The position numbers were made by a program, and so were the translations under genes. DNA of 5,721 nucleotides, taken from NCBI GenBank assembly GCA_027046415.1, contig JALTYW010000031.1, positions 1 through 5,721 on the forward strand, in the 5' to 3' direction. Origin of the DNA: Sulfurovum sp. (GTDB lineage Bacteria; Campylobacterota; Campylobacteria; Campylobacterales; Sulfurovaceae). Within the stretch, counting starts at the first letter, position 1, and every line of letters begins with the position of its first letter. Of the stretch, positions 40-5,721 are shown piece by piece. Below the pieces are notes generated by a model that worked only from the letters and a program-made list of their open reading frames with translations, was not told the origin of the DNA and searched no databases.

Positions 40-1332
40 ATGAAAACAAGTACATTCAAAAAACTTGGAACCGGAATCGCTTTGTCACTCGTGACTTCAA
101 CTATGCTTCATGCAACTAACGGAGATACTCTTATCGCTGTCGGTGCGAAAGCAAGAGGTATGGGTGGTACAGGTATCGCTGTAAGCCATGGTGCAGAATC
201 TACCATCAGTAACCCTGCTATGATCTCTACTGTCGAAGGTACAGAGATCTCATTTGGCGGTACGATCTTCATGCCTACTATCAAAACAACAATCAATCCG
301 GCTGGTGGAGCATTCCCTTCTCAACCTTTGACAAGTGATGCAGACATGAACATGATCCCTGAGGTTTCTATTGCTCACAAAATCAACGAAAACTGGTACA
401 TCGGTATCGGTATGTGGGGAACAGCAGGTATGGGTACAGACTATAGTAAAGCAGAAATGTCTTTCAGCCCTACAAGCTACCCTAAATTTGGTAACCTCAA
501 CATGGTTACAAACCTTCAGTTGATGCAGTTCGCTGTACCTGTAGCATACAAAACAGGCGGATTTACCATTGCAGCTGCACCAGTACTGCAGTACGGTAAC
601 CTTGACATCAACTACAAACTGCCAAACAGCCAGACAGGTTCTATTGACAACGTAGGTGCCGGTCTTGCACAGGACTTTGGATTTGGCTGGACAGCAGGTC
701 TCTCTTATGACTTTTCTAACGGACTTGTTATCGGTGCTGTGTACAAATCTTCTATCGAGATGACATATATCAACCAGCTCTCTTCTGCAACTGCACCATT
801 CGTTGCTATGGGTGCATTCCCTGCACCAATGGCAGACACACTTGAGCAGCCTGCAGAGATCGGTGCAGGTATCTCTTACACATTCGGTGGACACACACTG
901 GCATTTGACTACAAAAAGATCAAATGGGCAAGTGCAACAGGATATCAGGATTTTCAGTGGGAAGATCAGAATGTTTATGCAGTCGGTTACCAGTATACAC
1001 AAGACAACTGGGCAATTAGACTCGGTTACAACTATGGATCAAGCGCTGTTGTTGAACAGACTGGGGCGACAACACCACAGGGTATTGGCGCACAATCAGC
1101 TATCAACTTCTTCAACCTGCTTGGCTTTCCTGCTACACAGGAACAACATGTAACACTGGGTGGAACATATGAGTTCTCACAAACTTTCTCTGTTGACCTT
1201 GCATATGTATACGGTACAAACAACGAACAGACATATGGTATTCCTGCCTTTACACAGTCTTTCGGTACAGACTCCATTACAACCGAACACAAAGAGTCAA
1301 GCCTCTCTTTCCAGCTGACTTACAGATTCTAA
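40..1332 (+). CDS. OmpP1/FadL-family outer-membrane transporter
   Basis: This 430-residue protein is a predicted outer-membrane beta-barrel of the OmpP1/FadL/TodX family, whose members let hydrophobic compounds such as long-chain fatty acids or aromatic hydrocarbons cross the outer membrane. Residues 1-25 form a Sec signal peptide: basic residues at K2, K7 and K8, a hydrophobic core, and a likely cleavage after LHA. The mature N-terminus has the family's Gly-rich stretch (GAKARGMGGTGIAVSHG) followed by the conserved Asn-Pro-Ala at 58-60. The rest alternates aromatic and polar residues as expected of beta-strands and ends in Tyr-Arg-Phe, a typical BAM-recognised terminal Phe. The length is close to that of E. 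coli FadL. The start is supported by AGGA at 31-34, five bases upstream. A terminator follows, so it is probably monocistronic or the last gene of its unit. The family call is firm. The substrate is unknown, and fadL orthology is not claimed. Confidence 0.93.
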   Translation: MKTSTFKKLGTGIALSLVTSTMLHATNGDTLIAVGAKARGMGGTGIAVSHGAESTISNPAMISTVEGTEISFGGTIFMPTIKTTINPAGGAFPSQPLTSDADMNMIPEVSIAHKINENWYIGIGMWGTAGMGTDYSKAEMSFSPTSYPKFGNLNMVTNLQLMQFAVPVAYKTGGFTIAAAPVLQYGNLDINYKLPNSQTGSIDNVGAGLAQDFGFGWTAGLSYDFSNGLVIGAVYKSSIEMTYINQLSSATAPFVAMGAFPAPMADTLEQPAEIGAGISYTFGGHTLAFDYKKIKWASATGYQDFQWEDQNVYAVGYQYTQDNWAIRLGYNYGSSAVVEQTGATTPQGIGAQSAINFFNLLGFPATQEQHVTLGGTYEFSQTFSVDLAYVYGTNNEQTYGIPAFTQSFGTDSITTEHKESSLSFQLTYRF

Positions 1333-1436: not shown

Positions 1437-1471
1437 TAGAATTTGTATAAATAAAATAGTTTTCAAGATAT

Positions 1472-1476
1472 GGAGA
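1472..1476 (+). promoter_or_regulatory. ribosome binding site that fixes the adaptor start at 1482
   Basis: GGAGA lies five bases before the ATG at 1482. The in-frame ATGs at 1470 and 1476 overlap or follow this site too closely to use it, and nothing resembling a Shine-Dalgarno sequence sits at the correct distance before 1470. This decides for the third ATG, which also places two Lys directly after Met as in a normal signal peptide. Confidence 0.75.
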
Positions 1477-1481
1477 TGCCT

Positions 1482-2318
1482 ATGAAAAAAACACTGCTTA
1501 TTTCCAGCCTTCTACTCTCAGGTCTGCTTGCCAATACCATTTCCGTTACAGGTACCGTCGTTTCTGACAATAAGAAATATATCGGTGCACGATATATGGG
1601 ATATGTCAAAGAGGTTTATGTACAGATCGGTGACAAGGTAAAGCGTGAAGACACCCTGTTCAAAATGGATTCTGCGGAGTTTGATATTTTAAAAGAGCAG
1701 GTCAACCTCGGACTTGAACAGGCAGAGATTCTTACCGATGTCTACAGAAGCAAACTCGATGAGATACGCCGTAACAGAGCCCTTCTGATACGTCACAAAG
1801 ACAACAGTACCTTCAACTTCGATGATATGAATGAAAACCTATCTATCACCGCTGAGCATACACAGTCCATGCTCAAAGCAATGCAGGCAATTGTCAAAAA
1901 TGCGGCACAGAAGGTCAAGGAAATCAGTGTGATCTCGCACTATCTTGAGGTCAAAGCCCCCAGTGACGGGATCATCGTACAAAAGAATCTGCATGTAGGG
2001 GATATGGTCATGCCCGGTTTCCCAGTCATGGTACTGGTCGACCTCGATCACCTTGAGATCGAAGCACAGATCTCTGAGGCAGATCTTTTAAAGGTCAATG
2101 AAGGTGATTATGTACGGTTTGAAATTCCTTCTATTCGATATAAGGGACACGGCAAAATAAAATCTATTGTACCAAGTGCCAACCCTATGACACATACATT
2201 TACCATCCGCATCACTTTCAAACGCCGTCACCCCAAAATCTATCCCGGCATGTATACGAAGATCATGATCGATTACGATCCGACAAAATTCAGAGAGATT
2301 ACAGAAGAGGAGGAGTAA
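1482..2318 (+). CDS. short RND efflux periplasmic adaptor (membrane fusion protein, HlyD/AcrA type)
   Basis: This 278-residue protein is predicted to bridge an inner-membrane RND pump and an outer-membrane channel in the periplasm. Numbering is from the ATG at 1482. Residues 1-17 are a signal peptide (MKK, Leu/Ser core, LLA) with no lipobox Cys. The first lipoyl half is at about 35-63 (GYVKEVYVQIGDKV), the helical hairpin at about 64-153, and the second lipoyl half at about 154-186 (VKAPSDGIIVQ, then VGDMV). A beta-barrel domain follows, including the typical YPGMYTKI near the C-terminus. The protein is clearly shorter than AcrA-like adaptors (about 370-400 residues) and seems to lack most of the membrane-proximal domain. 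It ends in four Glu, encoded within the convergent palindrome. It faces the permease genes tail to tail, so pairing with that pump is plausible but inferred. The family call is secure. Confidence 0.9.
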   Translation: MKKTLLISSLLLSGLLANTISVTGTVVSDNKKYIGARYMGYVKEVYVQIGDKVKREDTLFKMDSAEFDILKEQVNLGLEQAEILTDVYRSKLDEIRRNRALLIRHKDNSTFNFDDMNENLSITAEHTQSMLKAMQAIVKNAAQKVKEISVISHYLEVKAPSDGIIVQKNLHVGDMVMPGFPVMVLVDLDHLEIEAQISEADLLKVNEGDYVRFEIPSIRYKGHGKIKSIVPSANPMTHTFTIRITFKRRHPKIYPGMYTKIMIDYDPTKFREITEEEE

Positions 2319-2332
2319 TCACTCCTCCTCTT
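2305..2332. terminator. 12-bp inverted repeat at the convergent gene junction, possible bidirectional terminator
   Basis: AAGAGGAGGAGT (2305-2316) and ACTCCTCCTCTT (2321-2332) are exact reverse complements around a four-base AATC loop. The loop and inner arms contain both stop codons: TAA at 2316-2318 for the adaptor, and TGA on the minus strand at 2321-2319 for the permease. The hairpin can form in either transcript. Only a short T run (TTT) follows on the plus strand and none on the minus strand, so termination may be inefficient or Rho-assisted. Because the stem codes for the last Glu residues of both proteins, its symmetry may also be partly a by-product of Glu codons on both strands. Confidence 0.6.
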
Positions 2333-4136
2333 TGTCACACTTCTTTTTAGGAAAGAGAATTGTCTTGAGGTTGTCTGTAAGCACACACCAGACATCTTTC
2401 CCCTCTTCATCCTCCTGCTCCTCATTGTCATCACATACCTGATGCTGCTCAGGCATCATCGCTTTTGCGTTATCCATCAATACAGGAATAAAGAAGAGTG
2501 CCACTGCCGTGGCAGCAATTGAACCAAAGATCAATGCAATCCCCAGACCTCCAAATATTGGATCGGTAGAGAGAAGAAGTGACCCTAGGATAATAGCCAC
2601 CGCAGTCATCAGGATAGGTTTTGCCCGGGTCGCAGTCGCTTTGGCGATCGCCTCCTTCTTATCCATCCCTTCACGTATGAGTGCTCGGGAAAAGTCGATC
2701 AGAAGTAGTGATCCTCTGGCACTGATCCCCATCAGTGAAATAAACCCGATCAGGGAGGTTGCCGTAAGGAAAAAGTTGACATCTGTCAAAGCCAGCGAGA
2801 TTTTGTCTGTCACCCAGTGCCCTGCAATCACACCGATAATAGAGAGGAAACTTCCGGCAAGGACAATACCGCTCAGTGCAAAAGATTTATAATAGACCAC
2901 CATCAATAAAAACATCAGTATCAACGCAGCGATGAACGCACCGCCAAGATCTCTAAAGGTATCGAGTGAAACTTTCATTTCACCATCCCACCGGATCAAC
3001 ACCTTATCCCCTGTCTTTTTATCTACCGCATTGAGATCGAACATATAGGTTGACATACCAGGTATTTTTGTAATGTTATATTCATCTTTCAAACGCTTGA
3101 GCATTGTATCACGTGCTTCCAGGAGCGGATAGACCTGTGAAACCATATCACATTCTGCGGTAATGATCGCCATATTTTTAAGGTCTTTTCTAAAAATGGT
3201 TGGAGAAGAAGGCATTGGTTTGATATCGACCACCTCAATCAACGGCACCATCATTCCTTTCTGGTTCATCAATCTCAAAGAGGAGAGTTTACTATGCAAC
3301 GCCTCTTTGCTCTCTCCGTTAATCTTTCTGGAACTTTCATCCAGTCTAACAAAGATAGGGATCTGGTCTTGCTGATTTTTGGTATTTTTGACAGCAACAG
3401 GCATCCCTTTAAAGGCTAAGTAAACAATCTGGTTGACCTGCTCGACACTCAATCCACTTCGTATAATCTTCTCTTTGTTGGGAGAGAGCATATAGGTTGT
3501 GTAGATATCGTCAAGCATTACATCGACATCGACCAGCCCTTCAGTATCTTTCAATACTCTGCTGACCCGTTCTGCCATATGTCGCAGTGCCTTGTCGGAC
3601 TTGCTGTAAACCTCTACAACGATGGTCGCGAGTGTCGGGGGTCCGGAAGGCATCTCTATGAATTTTATTGTTGTTCCCGGTTTGATCATTTCACAACGCT
3701 TTTTGATCACAGGACGCAAACGATGTACCATCATAAATGACGGCTCATCCCTGTGGTGTTTGTCTGTCAGGTTTACCACAATTTCAGCCTGATTCTGAAA
3801 ACGTTTGAAGGCACTCCCTTTTACCAGCCCCGCATAGTCCAGCGGTGCCCCCTGCCCCAAAAACACTTCCATATCGGTCACACCGCTCTCTTTCTGCAGC
3901 CTATTAACAACACACTGAGCCACCTGCGATGTCTCTTCAATGGAAGCGTTGGTCGGTGTATCAACATAGATCGTAAAGGTATTGGCGCTTTTTCCCGGAA
4001 GCATCTTGGCAAGTACCAGTTTTGTCGGTATCATCATCACAGATCCCATCAGTGCCATCAGCGTGATTAAAATAACCATCCGTTTCTTCTTTTTATGCCG
4101 AAGTATATCCAGTACGAAGGCTTCAAATTTTCCCAT
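2319..4136 (-). CDS. RND efflux permease, C-terminal half (TM7-TM12), separate ORF
   Basis: This 605-residue protein corresponds to the second half of an RND-superfamily proton/drug antiporter. A basic N-terminus (HKKKKR at 14-19) leads into TM7 (about 20-42), then a large periplasmic porter region (about 45-390, including KMLPGKS and MPSGPPTLA). TM8-TM12 start near 398 (DLGGAFIAALILMF) and include LTATSLIGFISLMGISARG and RAKPILMTAVAIILGSLLL. The TM10 position equivalent to the AcrB proton-relay Lys940 is Arg474, followed by Gly. The sequence resembles, from memory, a non-AcrB RND class whose TM10 reads VRNSILLVDF, normally one chain of about 1,000 residues or more. A cytoplasmic acidic tail holds Cys568, Cys584 and Cys600 and ends in EEE. 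It overlaps the N-terminal half by one base, so the two are almost certainly cotranscribed and translationally coupled. A single-base frameshift in one original gene is the alternative. Confidence 0.88.
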   Translation of the reverse strand: MGKFEAFVLDILRHKKKKRMVILITLMALMGSVMMIPTKLVLAKMLPGKSANTFTIYVDTPTNASIEETSQVAQCVVNRLQKESGVTDMEVFLGQGAPLDYAGLVKGSAFKRFQNQAEIVVNLTDKHHRDEPSFMMVHRLRPVIKKRCEMIKPGTTIKFIEMPSGPPTLATIVVEVYSKSDKALRHMAERVSRVLKDTEGLVDVDVMLDDIYTTYMLSPNKEKIIRSGLSVEQVNQIVYLAFKGMPVAVKNTKNQQDQIPIFVRLDESSRKINGESKEALHSKLSSLRLMNQKGMMVPLIEVVDIKPMPSSPTIFRKDLKNMAIITAECDMVSQVYPLLEARDTMLKRLKDEYNITKIPGMSTYMFDLNAVDKKTGDKVLIRWDGEMKVSLDTFRDLGGAFIAALILMFLLMVVYYKSFALSGIVLAGSFLSIIGVIAGHWVTDKISLALTDVNFFLTATSLIGFISLMGISARGSLLLIDFSRALIREGMDKKEAIAKATATRAKPILMTAVAIILGSLLLSTDPIFGGLGIALIFGSIAATAVALFFIPVLMDNAKAMMPEQHQVCDDNEEQEDEEGKDVWCVLTDNLKTILFPKKKCDKEEE

Positions 4137-5721
4137 TATTCACCCTTCTTCTCATTTTCCGCATGATGATGTTTATGTGCCAGCACCTCTTTTCTGATCT
4201 TTTTAAAGTTGAGCCATTTACGCGCCAAATAGGGGGCGAAAACATAGGCGACAAACAGTGAAACAGCAAGCCCTACAGGTACATTGAGCGGAATTGGTTT
4301 CATAAACTGCCCCATCATCCCACCAACAAACGCCATAGGTACCATCGTCAAAATGATCGCAATGGTTGCAATGTTGGTAGAAGGGCCAATCTCATCTGTT
4401 GCCTGAATGATAATCTCGTCAACACTCTTTTTTTCAATATCCAGATGCAGACGTCTATGGATATTTTCAATAACAATAATCGCATCATCCACTATAAGCC
4501 CCAACGAGAGCAAAAATGCAAACAGTGTGATACGGTTGATCGTCTGGTCTGTCAACTGCGCAATAAAAAGCGTTGTCGCCAAGATCATCGGCACCGCAAC
4601 GGTAACAACCATAGACTCACGCCATCCGAGGAACGGAATTAGAATCAGCATAATAATAAAAATGGTGATTTCAAGATGGTGTACCAGTTCATTGACCGCT
4701 TCGTTCGCACGCTCACCATAGTTCCGGGTGATCACAAACCCAACACCCGCTTTGTTAAGCTCTTCTTTTGCCGCTTCGATCTTCTCGATAGCCTCTTTGG
4801 CGATGAATACTGCGTTGGTACCTTTGAGTTTGGAGACCGTCATCGTGATCTGTGTATCAAGCGGGACAAATTCAGGCAGCTCTTTTTCCTCTCCCTCTTC
4901 AGACGTATCCTCTTCACCGGGCTTTCTAATCGCTTCTGGCTCTTTCTCCATACCTTTACGATAGCTGATTTTCGCGCTCTGGTAATTCTGTATATCATAA
5001 CTGTATTCGACTTTTGCAATATTTTTCAGATAGATCGGTGAACCCATATACTGTGCAATGATCAACTCTTTAAGATCGTCGATTGTATCGATAGCGTTCT
5101 CAACACCAAAGACGATCATCTTCTTTTGGTTGTTTAAAGTGTCAATGAGAGGCGCATTGGTTGAGATCGCTTTGATTGCCTGGGCAACCTGTCCCAAAGA
5201 GATATGATAGGCTGAGAGTTTGTGCAGGTCTATCAGGACATTGTACTGCGGACGTTTCACCCCTTTGAGGGTCGTTTTAGAGACATTGTCAAGTGCATTG
5301 ATCTCTGTCTGAAGTTCACGAATGGTTTTATAGAGTTCCACCACATTCATCTTCGTGCCCGGCAAACGGTAAAATGCCGCAGTGAGGACAGGGATATCAA
5401 TATCGATATCAAAGGGTTTCACCAGCGGCGGCATGGTGCCTTTTGGCAGTTGATCCATATTTTGCATCACTTTGTCATAGAGCTTCAGGTTGGAAGATTC
5501 TCTCTCCTCACCGATAAAATACTGCACATTGATCATACCGAAATTGTTCATAGCCGTACCGTAAACATGCTCTACACCTTTGATCTCCCTGATCTTTCGC
5601 TCAAGAGGTTTGATCACGACATTAAGAATCTCTTTGGGGGAAGCTCCAGGCATGGCAACGACAACGGCACCGCCGCTTACCTCTATTTGAGGATCTTCTT
5701 CTCTTGGCATGGTGTTGAGTG
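4136..5721 (-). CDS. RND efflux permease, N-terminal half (TM2-TM6 visible), 5' end outside the window
   Basis: This is the first half of an RND permease. The frame stays open to the right edge (Leu-Asn-Thr precede the Met at 5710), so that Met, within the family segment MPREEDPQI, is internal, and the true start with TM1 lies outside. Counting from that Met, about 1-340 form the first periplasmic porter region, with an acidic segment at about 254-284. TM2 starts near 348, after NEAVNELVHHL. TM4 contains the proton-relay Asp pair at 408-409 (GLIVDDAIIVIENIHRR), equivalent to AcrB Asp407/Asp408, and TM6 ends near 497. The chain stops after a charged, His-containing tail (HKHHHAENEKKGE), where a normal permease continues through a cytoplasmic linker into TM7. 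The stop TAA overlaps the next ATG. RND identity is very secure. The substrate is unknown, and whether the break is natural cannot be settled here. Confidence 0.9.
   Translation of the reverse strand, partial: LNTMPREEDPQIEVSGGAVVVAMPGASPKEILNVVIKPLERKIREIKGVEHVYGTAMNNFGMINVQYFIGEERESSNLKLYDKVMQNMDQLPKGTMPPLVKPFDIDIDIPVLTAAFYRLPGTKMNVVELYKTIRELQTEINALDNVSKTTLKGVKRPQYNVLIDLHKLSAYHISLGQVAQAIKAISTNAPLIDTLNNQKKMIVFGVENAIDTIDDLKELIIAQYMGSPIYLKNIAKVEYSYDIQNYQSAKISYRKGMEKEPEAIRKPGEEDTSEEGEEKELPEFVPLDTQITMTVSKLKGTNAVFIAKEAIEKIEAAKEELNKAGVGFVITRNYGERANEAVNELVHHLEITIFIIMLILIPFLGWRESMVVTVAVPMILATTLFIAQLTDQTINRITLFAFLLSLGLIVDDAIIVIENIHRRLHLDIEKKSVDEIIIQATDEIGPSTNIATIAIILTMVPMAFVGGMMGQFMKPIPLNVPVGLAVSLFVAYVFAPYLARKWLNFKKIRKEVLAHKHHHAENEKKGE
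4143..4147 (-). promoter_or_regulatory. ribosome binding site for the C-terminal permease half
   Basis: Read on the minus strand, AAGGG lies six bases before the ATG at 4136, inside the last codons of the N-terminal half. With the TAATG overlap, this gives the downstream half its own well-placed initiation signal and suggests translational coupling. An in-frame TGA two codons upstream of the ATG excludes a longer start. The match is purine-rich and short, so chance is possible. Confidence 0.5.

Follow-up and report, generated by a model that had tools for sequence, protein, structure and literature searches.

A predicted AcrB-type RND permease of Sulfurovum encoded by two overlapping half-genes, a split conserved among its relatives

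Introduction

Is the resistance-nodulation-division (RND) permease of a Sulfurovum sp. contig, which is read as two overlapping open reading frames (ORFs), a single protein broken by error, or a permease built of two chains? The window, by which we mean the whole stretch of DNA analysed, is 5,721 nucleotides long and comprises the entire contig (C31 in our numbering) of a genome of 1.44 Mb in 260 contigs that is 65.7% complete. The reading to which we give a probability of roughly 90% is that two overlapping genes, split between transmembrane segments (TM) 6 and 7, encode an N-chain and a C-chain predicted to pair as one proton-driven permease of the AcrB type, likely composed of three N-chains and three C-chains and working with a periplasmic adaptor. 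The sequence itself shows the split and its conservation, a single clade containing all split sequences, and proton-relay positions divided between the chains. An obligate half-plus-half permease with three of each chain per pump is likely, and obligate pairing, as a prediction, is the best reading of these features.

Results

The permease genes and their junction are located in the window as follows.

2319 to 4136, minus strand: C-chain of the RND permease, TM7-12 and the periplasmic half, 605 residues (ORF, PF00873 at 3e-45, TM segments, model)
4136 to 5719, minus strand: N-chain of the RND permease, TM2-6 and the periplasmic half (ORF, PF00873 at 6.4e-63, TM segments)
4134 to 4138, minus strand: TAATG stop-start overlap of the two genes, offset -1 (sequence)
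4143 to 4147, minus strand: AAGGG, Shine-Dalgarno-like, six bases upstream of the C-chain ATG (sequence)

The N-chain stop codon TAA occupies 4138-4136 and the C-chain start codon ATG occupies 4136-4134, with base 4136 common to both. The original observation of a TM6/TM7 split with a one-base TAATG overlap and AAGGG six bases before the ATG was thus borne out by the ORFs and the sequence. The C-chain's length of 605 residues and its start recur in two 97% and 95% identical proteins found in further records, whose starts were assigned by gene callers. Both chains belong to the RND AcrB/AcrD/AcrF type, scoring 213.3 (N-chain) and 154.8 bits (C-chain) with ACR_tran (PF00873), for which the gathering score is 28, and they match different halves of this profile. 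Hydropathy gives five TM segments in the window N-chain (TM2-6) and six in the C-chain. The N-chain ORF runs open into the contig end (5719), its start and TM1 lying outside the window; the missing TM1 is carried at residues 22-40 by the N-chain of a relative, L032, in which the full-length gene (L032:7289-9001) encodes 561 residues and the product is 90% identical to the window N-chain. With TM1 taken from L032, the layout is 6+6 TM, TM1 and TM7 each being followed by a periplasmic loop. Models were predicted for the N-chain of L032 and the C-chain of the window. The former covers AcrB-type residues from 1 up to 498-515 (535-536 in a few rows) and the latter those from 521-532 to the chain end; in AcrB itself the matched stretches are 1 to about 505 and 524-1034. 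This puts the break after TM6 and ahead of the short helix leading into TM7. An acidic stretch is present in the periplasmic half of the N-chain at about residues 250-290 (minus strand, about 4850-4970), and the matching part of the L032 model has a predicted local distance difference test score (pLDDT) below 50.

Conservation was followed in 159 relative loci (L003-L161), consisting of the best-scoring matches of several scans and loci of 30 genomes hand-picked for low identity. The split occurs at the same place in 146 of them, ten are single-chain and three lack the N-half at a contig edge, so that every locus with a readable junction is split save the ten single-chain loci. These totals include script calls of 144 split, ten single-chain and five uncalled loci; two of the five (L076 and L083) were split in the reading of the first set and three (L044, L137 and L161) start inside the C-half at a contig edge. 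A script flag of L144 as fused was ruled out by a stop visible in the translation, this locus being split with an offset of +9. In the first set (L003-L132), in which some loci are the same contig from two collections, both halves are present in 129 of 130 loci and all 129 are split, the exception being L044 with its contig edge. Close orthologues in the form of single ORFs would have pointed to a frameshifted gene, and the outcome was the opposite. The doubt first noted, of a recent frameshift or sequencing error, is removed by a split kept in so many loci with differing junctions, and the conserved split supports the genuine two-subunit RND permease originally proposed, two polypeptides and their assembly into a pump being predicted. 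The ten single-chain relatives (L149-L157 and L159) are set apart from the split loci, with 35-43% identity overall, 37-43% in one comparison and 35-41% in another, and open frames of 1076-1238 residues. Identity is no clean divider of the two forms, as L158 is split at 43% and L149 and L150 are single-chain at 43%. N-chain length in 55 named relatives is 523-592 residues.

The family is widespread within its order. In the order sample the C-chain has matches at E 1e-60 in 276 of 398 genomes, leaving 122 without, and in 63 of 87 genera; in the phylum sample it has matches in 163 of 397 genomes, and all of the matches listed there fall in the same order. All of these counts include single-chain relatives. 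Split loci occur in at least 23 tool-labelled genera by hand count. A pattern scan of named genomes, the sole look at other phyla, gave 316 relatives, of which the best 80 are titled as Campylobacterota groups, and the closest named relatives are mostly Sulfurovum metagenome-assembled genomes. One relative, P0073, with a C-chain 72% identical to that of the window, bears the source label 'cyanobacterium G8-9', which may be wrong.

The residues of the proton relay were located by alignment.

4484 to 4489, minus strand: paired Asp codons of TM4 (N-chain residues 411-412, numbered from the edge of the window), equivalent to the AcrB relay Asp pair
2715 to 2717, minus strand: Arg474 of the C-chain, TM10, in the column of the AcrB-type relay Lys
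2604 to 2627, minus strand: TM11 stretch Arg504 to Thr511 of the C-chain, relay equivalents

All relay positions of TM4, TM10 and TM11 are therefore represented in the window, Arg replacing Lys in TM10, and they are divided, TM4 lying on the N-chain and TM10 and TM11 on the C-chain. The first Asp is kept in 117 of 117 aligned N-chains, and the Arg, Arg and Thr of the C-chain are each kept in 116 of 116. Relatives with Ala at the second Asp (equivalent to window 4484-4486) are all 61% or less identical to the window N-chain, suggesting, from the alignment, a subgroup with a one-Asp relay. Models of the AcrB cycle rest on two repeats engaging and disengaging at a common proton-relay interface, as set out in part of PMC4359379. 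The N- and C-chains would meet at this R1-R2 repeat interface, across which the N-chain would contribute its TM4 Asp to the relay and the C-chain its TM10 Arg and its TM11 Arg and Thr. A relay formed jointly by both chains would mean that neither could work alone. That the chains function independently, as half-size transporters in their own right or each with another partner, is thus highly unlikely: half-size superfamily members do exist (SecD and SecF of E. coli) and some C-chains have a tetratricopeptide (TPR) extension of their own, but the N gene is adjacent in all examined loci whose contig reaches far enough, the relay positions are divided between the chains, and the closest single-chain relatives hold both halves. 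C-chains of about 720-833 residues form a subgroup (P0005, P0027, P0029 and others), most having the extension with TPR repeats (PF00515); C-chain frames of 825-830 residues are found at L009, L010 and L045. Distances between N-chains and between C-chains are correlated (r 0.93 over 111 loci).

The halves may be exchangeable, such that cells with two pairs, as in the single-contig genome G024, could build hybrid pumps and control pump number via assembly of the halves; the RND permeases of the order would then be two-subunit machines. The seam runs along the R1-R2 interface, at which the repeats engage and disengage in the course of the AcrB cycle, and the family would thus be a case in which nature has separated the two moving repeats. 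We regard exchangeable halves as unlikely.

The junctions suggest how the N- and C-chains may be translated. Junctions were measured in the 144 split loci called by script and merged where identical, giving 119 distinct junctions exclusive of the window; offset is the position of the C start, picked by script, relative to the end of the N stop. Offsets range from -13 to +13 bases, the commonest being -1 (41 of 119) followed by -4 (26 of 119), and the C start codon is ATG in 111, GTG in seven and TTG in one. A strict Shine-Dalgarno core (GGAG, GAGG or AGGA, 4-16 bases before the C start) is present in 89 of 119 junctions compared with 3-7 of 116-119 in eight control windows, and a broader motif in 105 of 119 compared with 5-36 in seven control windows; the AAGGG of the window matches the broad motif and not the strict core. 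As the strict core is enriched before the C start relative to controls, the second gene has a translation start of its own, apparently maintained by selection. It would be translated by coupled re-initiation at this Shine-Dalgarno site right after the first stop, which may yield near-equal amounts of both chains.

The same junctions bear on recoding, in which a programmed frameshift or stop read-through would produce one full-length chain from the two ORFs. Short overlaps are compatible with such an event, as are the slippery-type heptamers that 47 of 119 loci carry in the 40 bases preceding the stop, a count made without a control. However, the N and C ORFs stand in all three frame relations (86, 21 and 12 of 119), the 21 being in-frame pairs, a variation that no single recoding event would explain. 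Strict cores precede the second start in most junctions, and the C-chain start is nearly constant, 41-51 residues before the MLPG motif (n=114), versus an N-chain tail that varies from 10 to 63 residues (n=114). We consider recoding very improbable.

The history of the split was reconstructed with IQ-TREE under LG+G4 without a mixture, using 54 rows for the C-half (34 split, ten single-chain relatives and ten single-chain paralogues) and 53 for the N-half (33 split, ten single-chain relatives and ten paralogues), the split rows being a diverse subset of 122 and the paralogues ten of 25. In both trees the split sequences lie on one side of a single branch (100/100) with one state change, and FastTree on all 157 rows again gave one split clade. 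In neither IQ-TREE tree are the single-chain relatives grouped as one clade, which fits a single-chain ancestor, long branches being flagged. The simplest reading of these trees, rooted on paralogues, is that the split arose by one fission. In G024, two split pairs accompany seven single-chain RND permeases with frames of 1018-1057 residues; G040 and G059 each combine a split pair with a single-chain relative, whose frame is 1126 or 1116 residues long.

It is all but out of the question that the split reflects a single-chain gene disrupted by faulty sequencing or assembly or by a recent frameshift. Such a disruption would be favoured by the one-base overlap, by the single-base deletion that would join the frames and by the fragmented, incomplete assembly. 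Against it stand the split relatives with their differing junction sequences and frames, the 97% and 95% identical proteins with the same start and length, and G024, in which seven single-chain RND genes are kept beside two split pairs, so that a general sequencing fault does not account for the split. Splitting is a frequent sign of gene decay, and the window N-chain is cut by the contig end, but a decaying pseudogene pair is scarcely credible given that, for six pairs (dS 0.27-1.88, two loci used twice), the ratio of nonsynonymous to synonymous substitution (dN/dS) is about 0.02-0.08 in each half, that the main relay residues are invariant and that both halves are kept in all of the hand-counted genera. 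In comparisons with the window itself, synonymous sites were saturated or nearly so.

Discussion

Several observations weigh against an obligate two-chain permease. The window's N-chain is without its own start. The predicted models are of moderate quality (mean pLDDT 68.2 and 69.7; for the C-chain, Foldseek TM-scores of 0.31-0.37 with a root-mean-square deviation of 15-17), and the relative placing of domains is therefore unsupported. The chains also pass the gathering scores of other families, SecD_SecF_C for the N-chain (22.5, threshold 20.5) and MMPL for the C-chain (24.3, threshold 20.5), each far under its ACR_tran score. In the relay, the second Asp, which is Asp in the window, is Ala in 37 of 117 aligned N-chains and X in one more, and the TM10 Lys is replaced by Arg in a column that holds Lys in ten, Asn in seven, Leu in four and Glu in four of 25 paralogues. 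The broad Shine-Dalgarno motif reached 36 of 119 in one of the seven control windows. Support for the split clade in the first FastTree was just 0.625, and the IQ-TREE runs used no mixture model, with long branches flagged that include single-chain L159. The correlation of N and C distances is uncorrected for species history, and nearest neighbours agree in just 71 of 111 loci. Finally, the window holds no outer-membrane channel gene, its own 65.7% complete genome not having been searched for the TolC type.

The closest known systems are the single-chain HAE-1 permeases (AcrB, MexB, MdtF and AdeJ), which share PF00873, the arrangement of 6+6 TM in which TM1 and TM7 are each followed by a large periplasmic loop, the relay positions of TM4, TM10 and TM11 and the predicted fold of each half. 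Unlike them, the window permease is encoded by two genes and has Arg for Lys at the TM10 position. A single chain of about 1000 residues or more, expected of HAE-1, is replaced by two ORFs here and in the split relatives, and NCBIfam cut-offs for full-length permeases, such as RND_permease_2 (1250 bits), are not attained (194.5 and 114.1 bits), nor would half-length chains be expected to attain them. Among solved structures, the best sequence matches of the C-chain profile are 6vej, which we take to be TriC, and MexK; both have Arg at the TM10 position, and unlike the window permease they are single chains of 1022-1031 residues.

HAE-1 permeases are described in part of PMC8277102 as homotrimers, rarely heterotrimers such as MdtBC, and the same source portrays SecD/SecF as a heterodimeric 2x6 TM arrangement, fused in Thermus. 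SecD and SecF resemble the split pair as superfamily members able to work as two six-TM chains; they differ as a protein-export family. Membership of SecD/SecF was rejected, as it rests on one marginal Pfam score, that of the N-chain for SecD_SecF_C, compared with 213.3 for ACR_tran, and the SecF family model TIGR00966 of NCBIfam gave 32.8 bits with a cut-off of 160. MdtB/MdtC, as presented in that source, likewise form an RND pump with two inner-membrane transporter genes, but theirs are two full-length paralogues rather than halves. An MdtBC-like paralogue pair was ruled out, since the window chains match different halves and are of half length (N-chains 523-592, C-chain 605 residues). NolGHI of Rhizobium is likewise named as several genes; it is a single gene according to a passage of PMC8277102, whereas the split described here is conserved.

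RND pumps are described for Aliarcobacter butzleri in PMC8300790 and only mentioned for Sulfurovum in PMC10290299. In titles and abstract openings, with subscription papers mostly uncovered and the absence accordingly weak, we found no natural half-plus-half AcrB-type permease. The type of machine is already known; its two-chain build appears to be new. A census of HME, NFE and HAE-1 permeases kept alignment sizes above 80% and dropped sequences below 852 residues, six being lost to the length cut, as reported in part of PMC10872679. Split halves would escape a census of this kind because filters on alignment size and length would exclude half-length chains. Source records name the C-chain alone as permease subunit or AcrB, and this labelling together with length-filtered censuses points to a blind spot in which split permeases would be hidden. 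AcrB-type pumps have been studied as single chains, and a lineage of many genera with the cut exactly between the repeats suggests that the pump can do without the covalent link. The split lineage provides a ready-made system for measuring association of the repeats.

Two further genes complete the window.

40 to 1332, plus strand: FadL/TodX-family outer-membrane protein, upstream of the adaptor gene (ORF and family search)
1470 to 2318, plus strand: short periplasmic adaptor (HlyD_D23 / RND_mfp), convergent with the permease genes (ORF and family searches)

The adaptor stop (2318) abuts the C-chain stop (2319), providing a periplasmic adaptor near the permease as expected of a tripartite system. 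Among named loci with sufficient flank, 28 of 33 have an adaptor no more than 4.5 kb from the pair; it converges directly on the C-chain in 27 of 56 named loci and lies directly upstream in 13 of 49. FadL is found within 4.5 kb in nine of 33 loci; this FadL-like neighbour and the family suggest hydrophobic compounds as the predicted substrates. A co-directional TolC-type (OEP-like) gene was detected upstream, with one query, in six of 49 loci, and in L110 and L111 an outer-membrane factor, adaptor, N-chain and C-chain follow in order on one strand. L032 has the same order as the window, FadL and adaptor converging on the N- and C-chain genes, with the N-chain complete. About 3 kb upstream of its split pair, three consecutive genes (L032:16-4316) encode an MMPL-type RND protein, a LolA-like protein and a DUF1302 protein.

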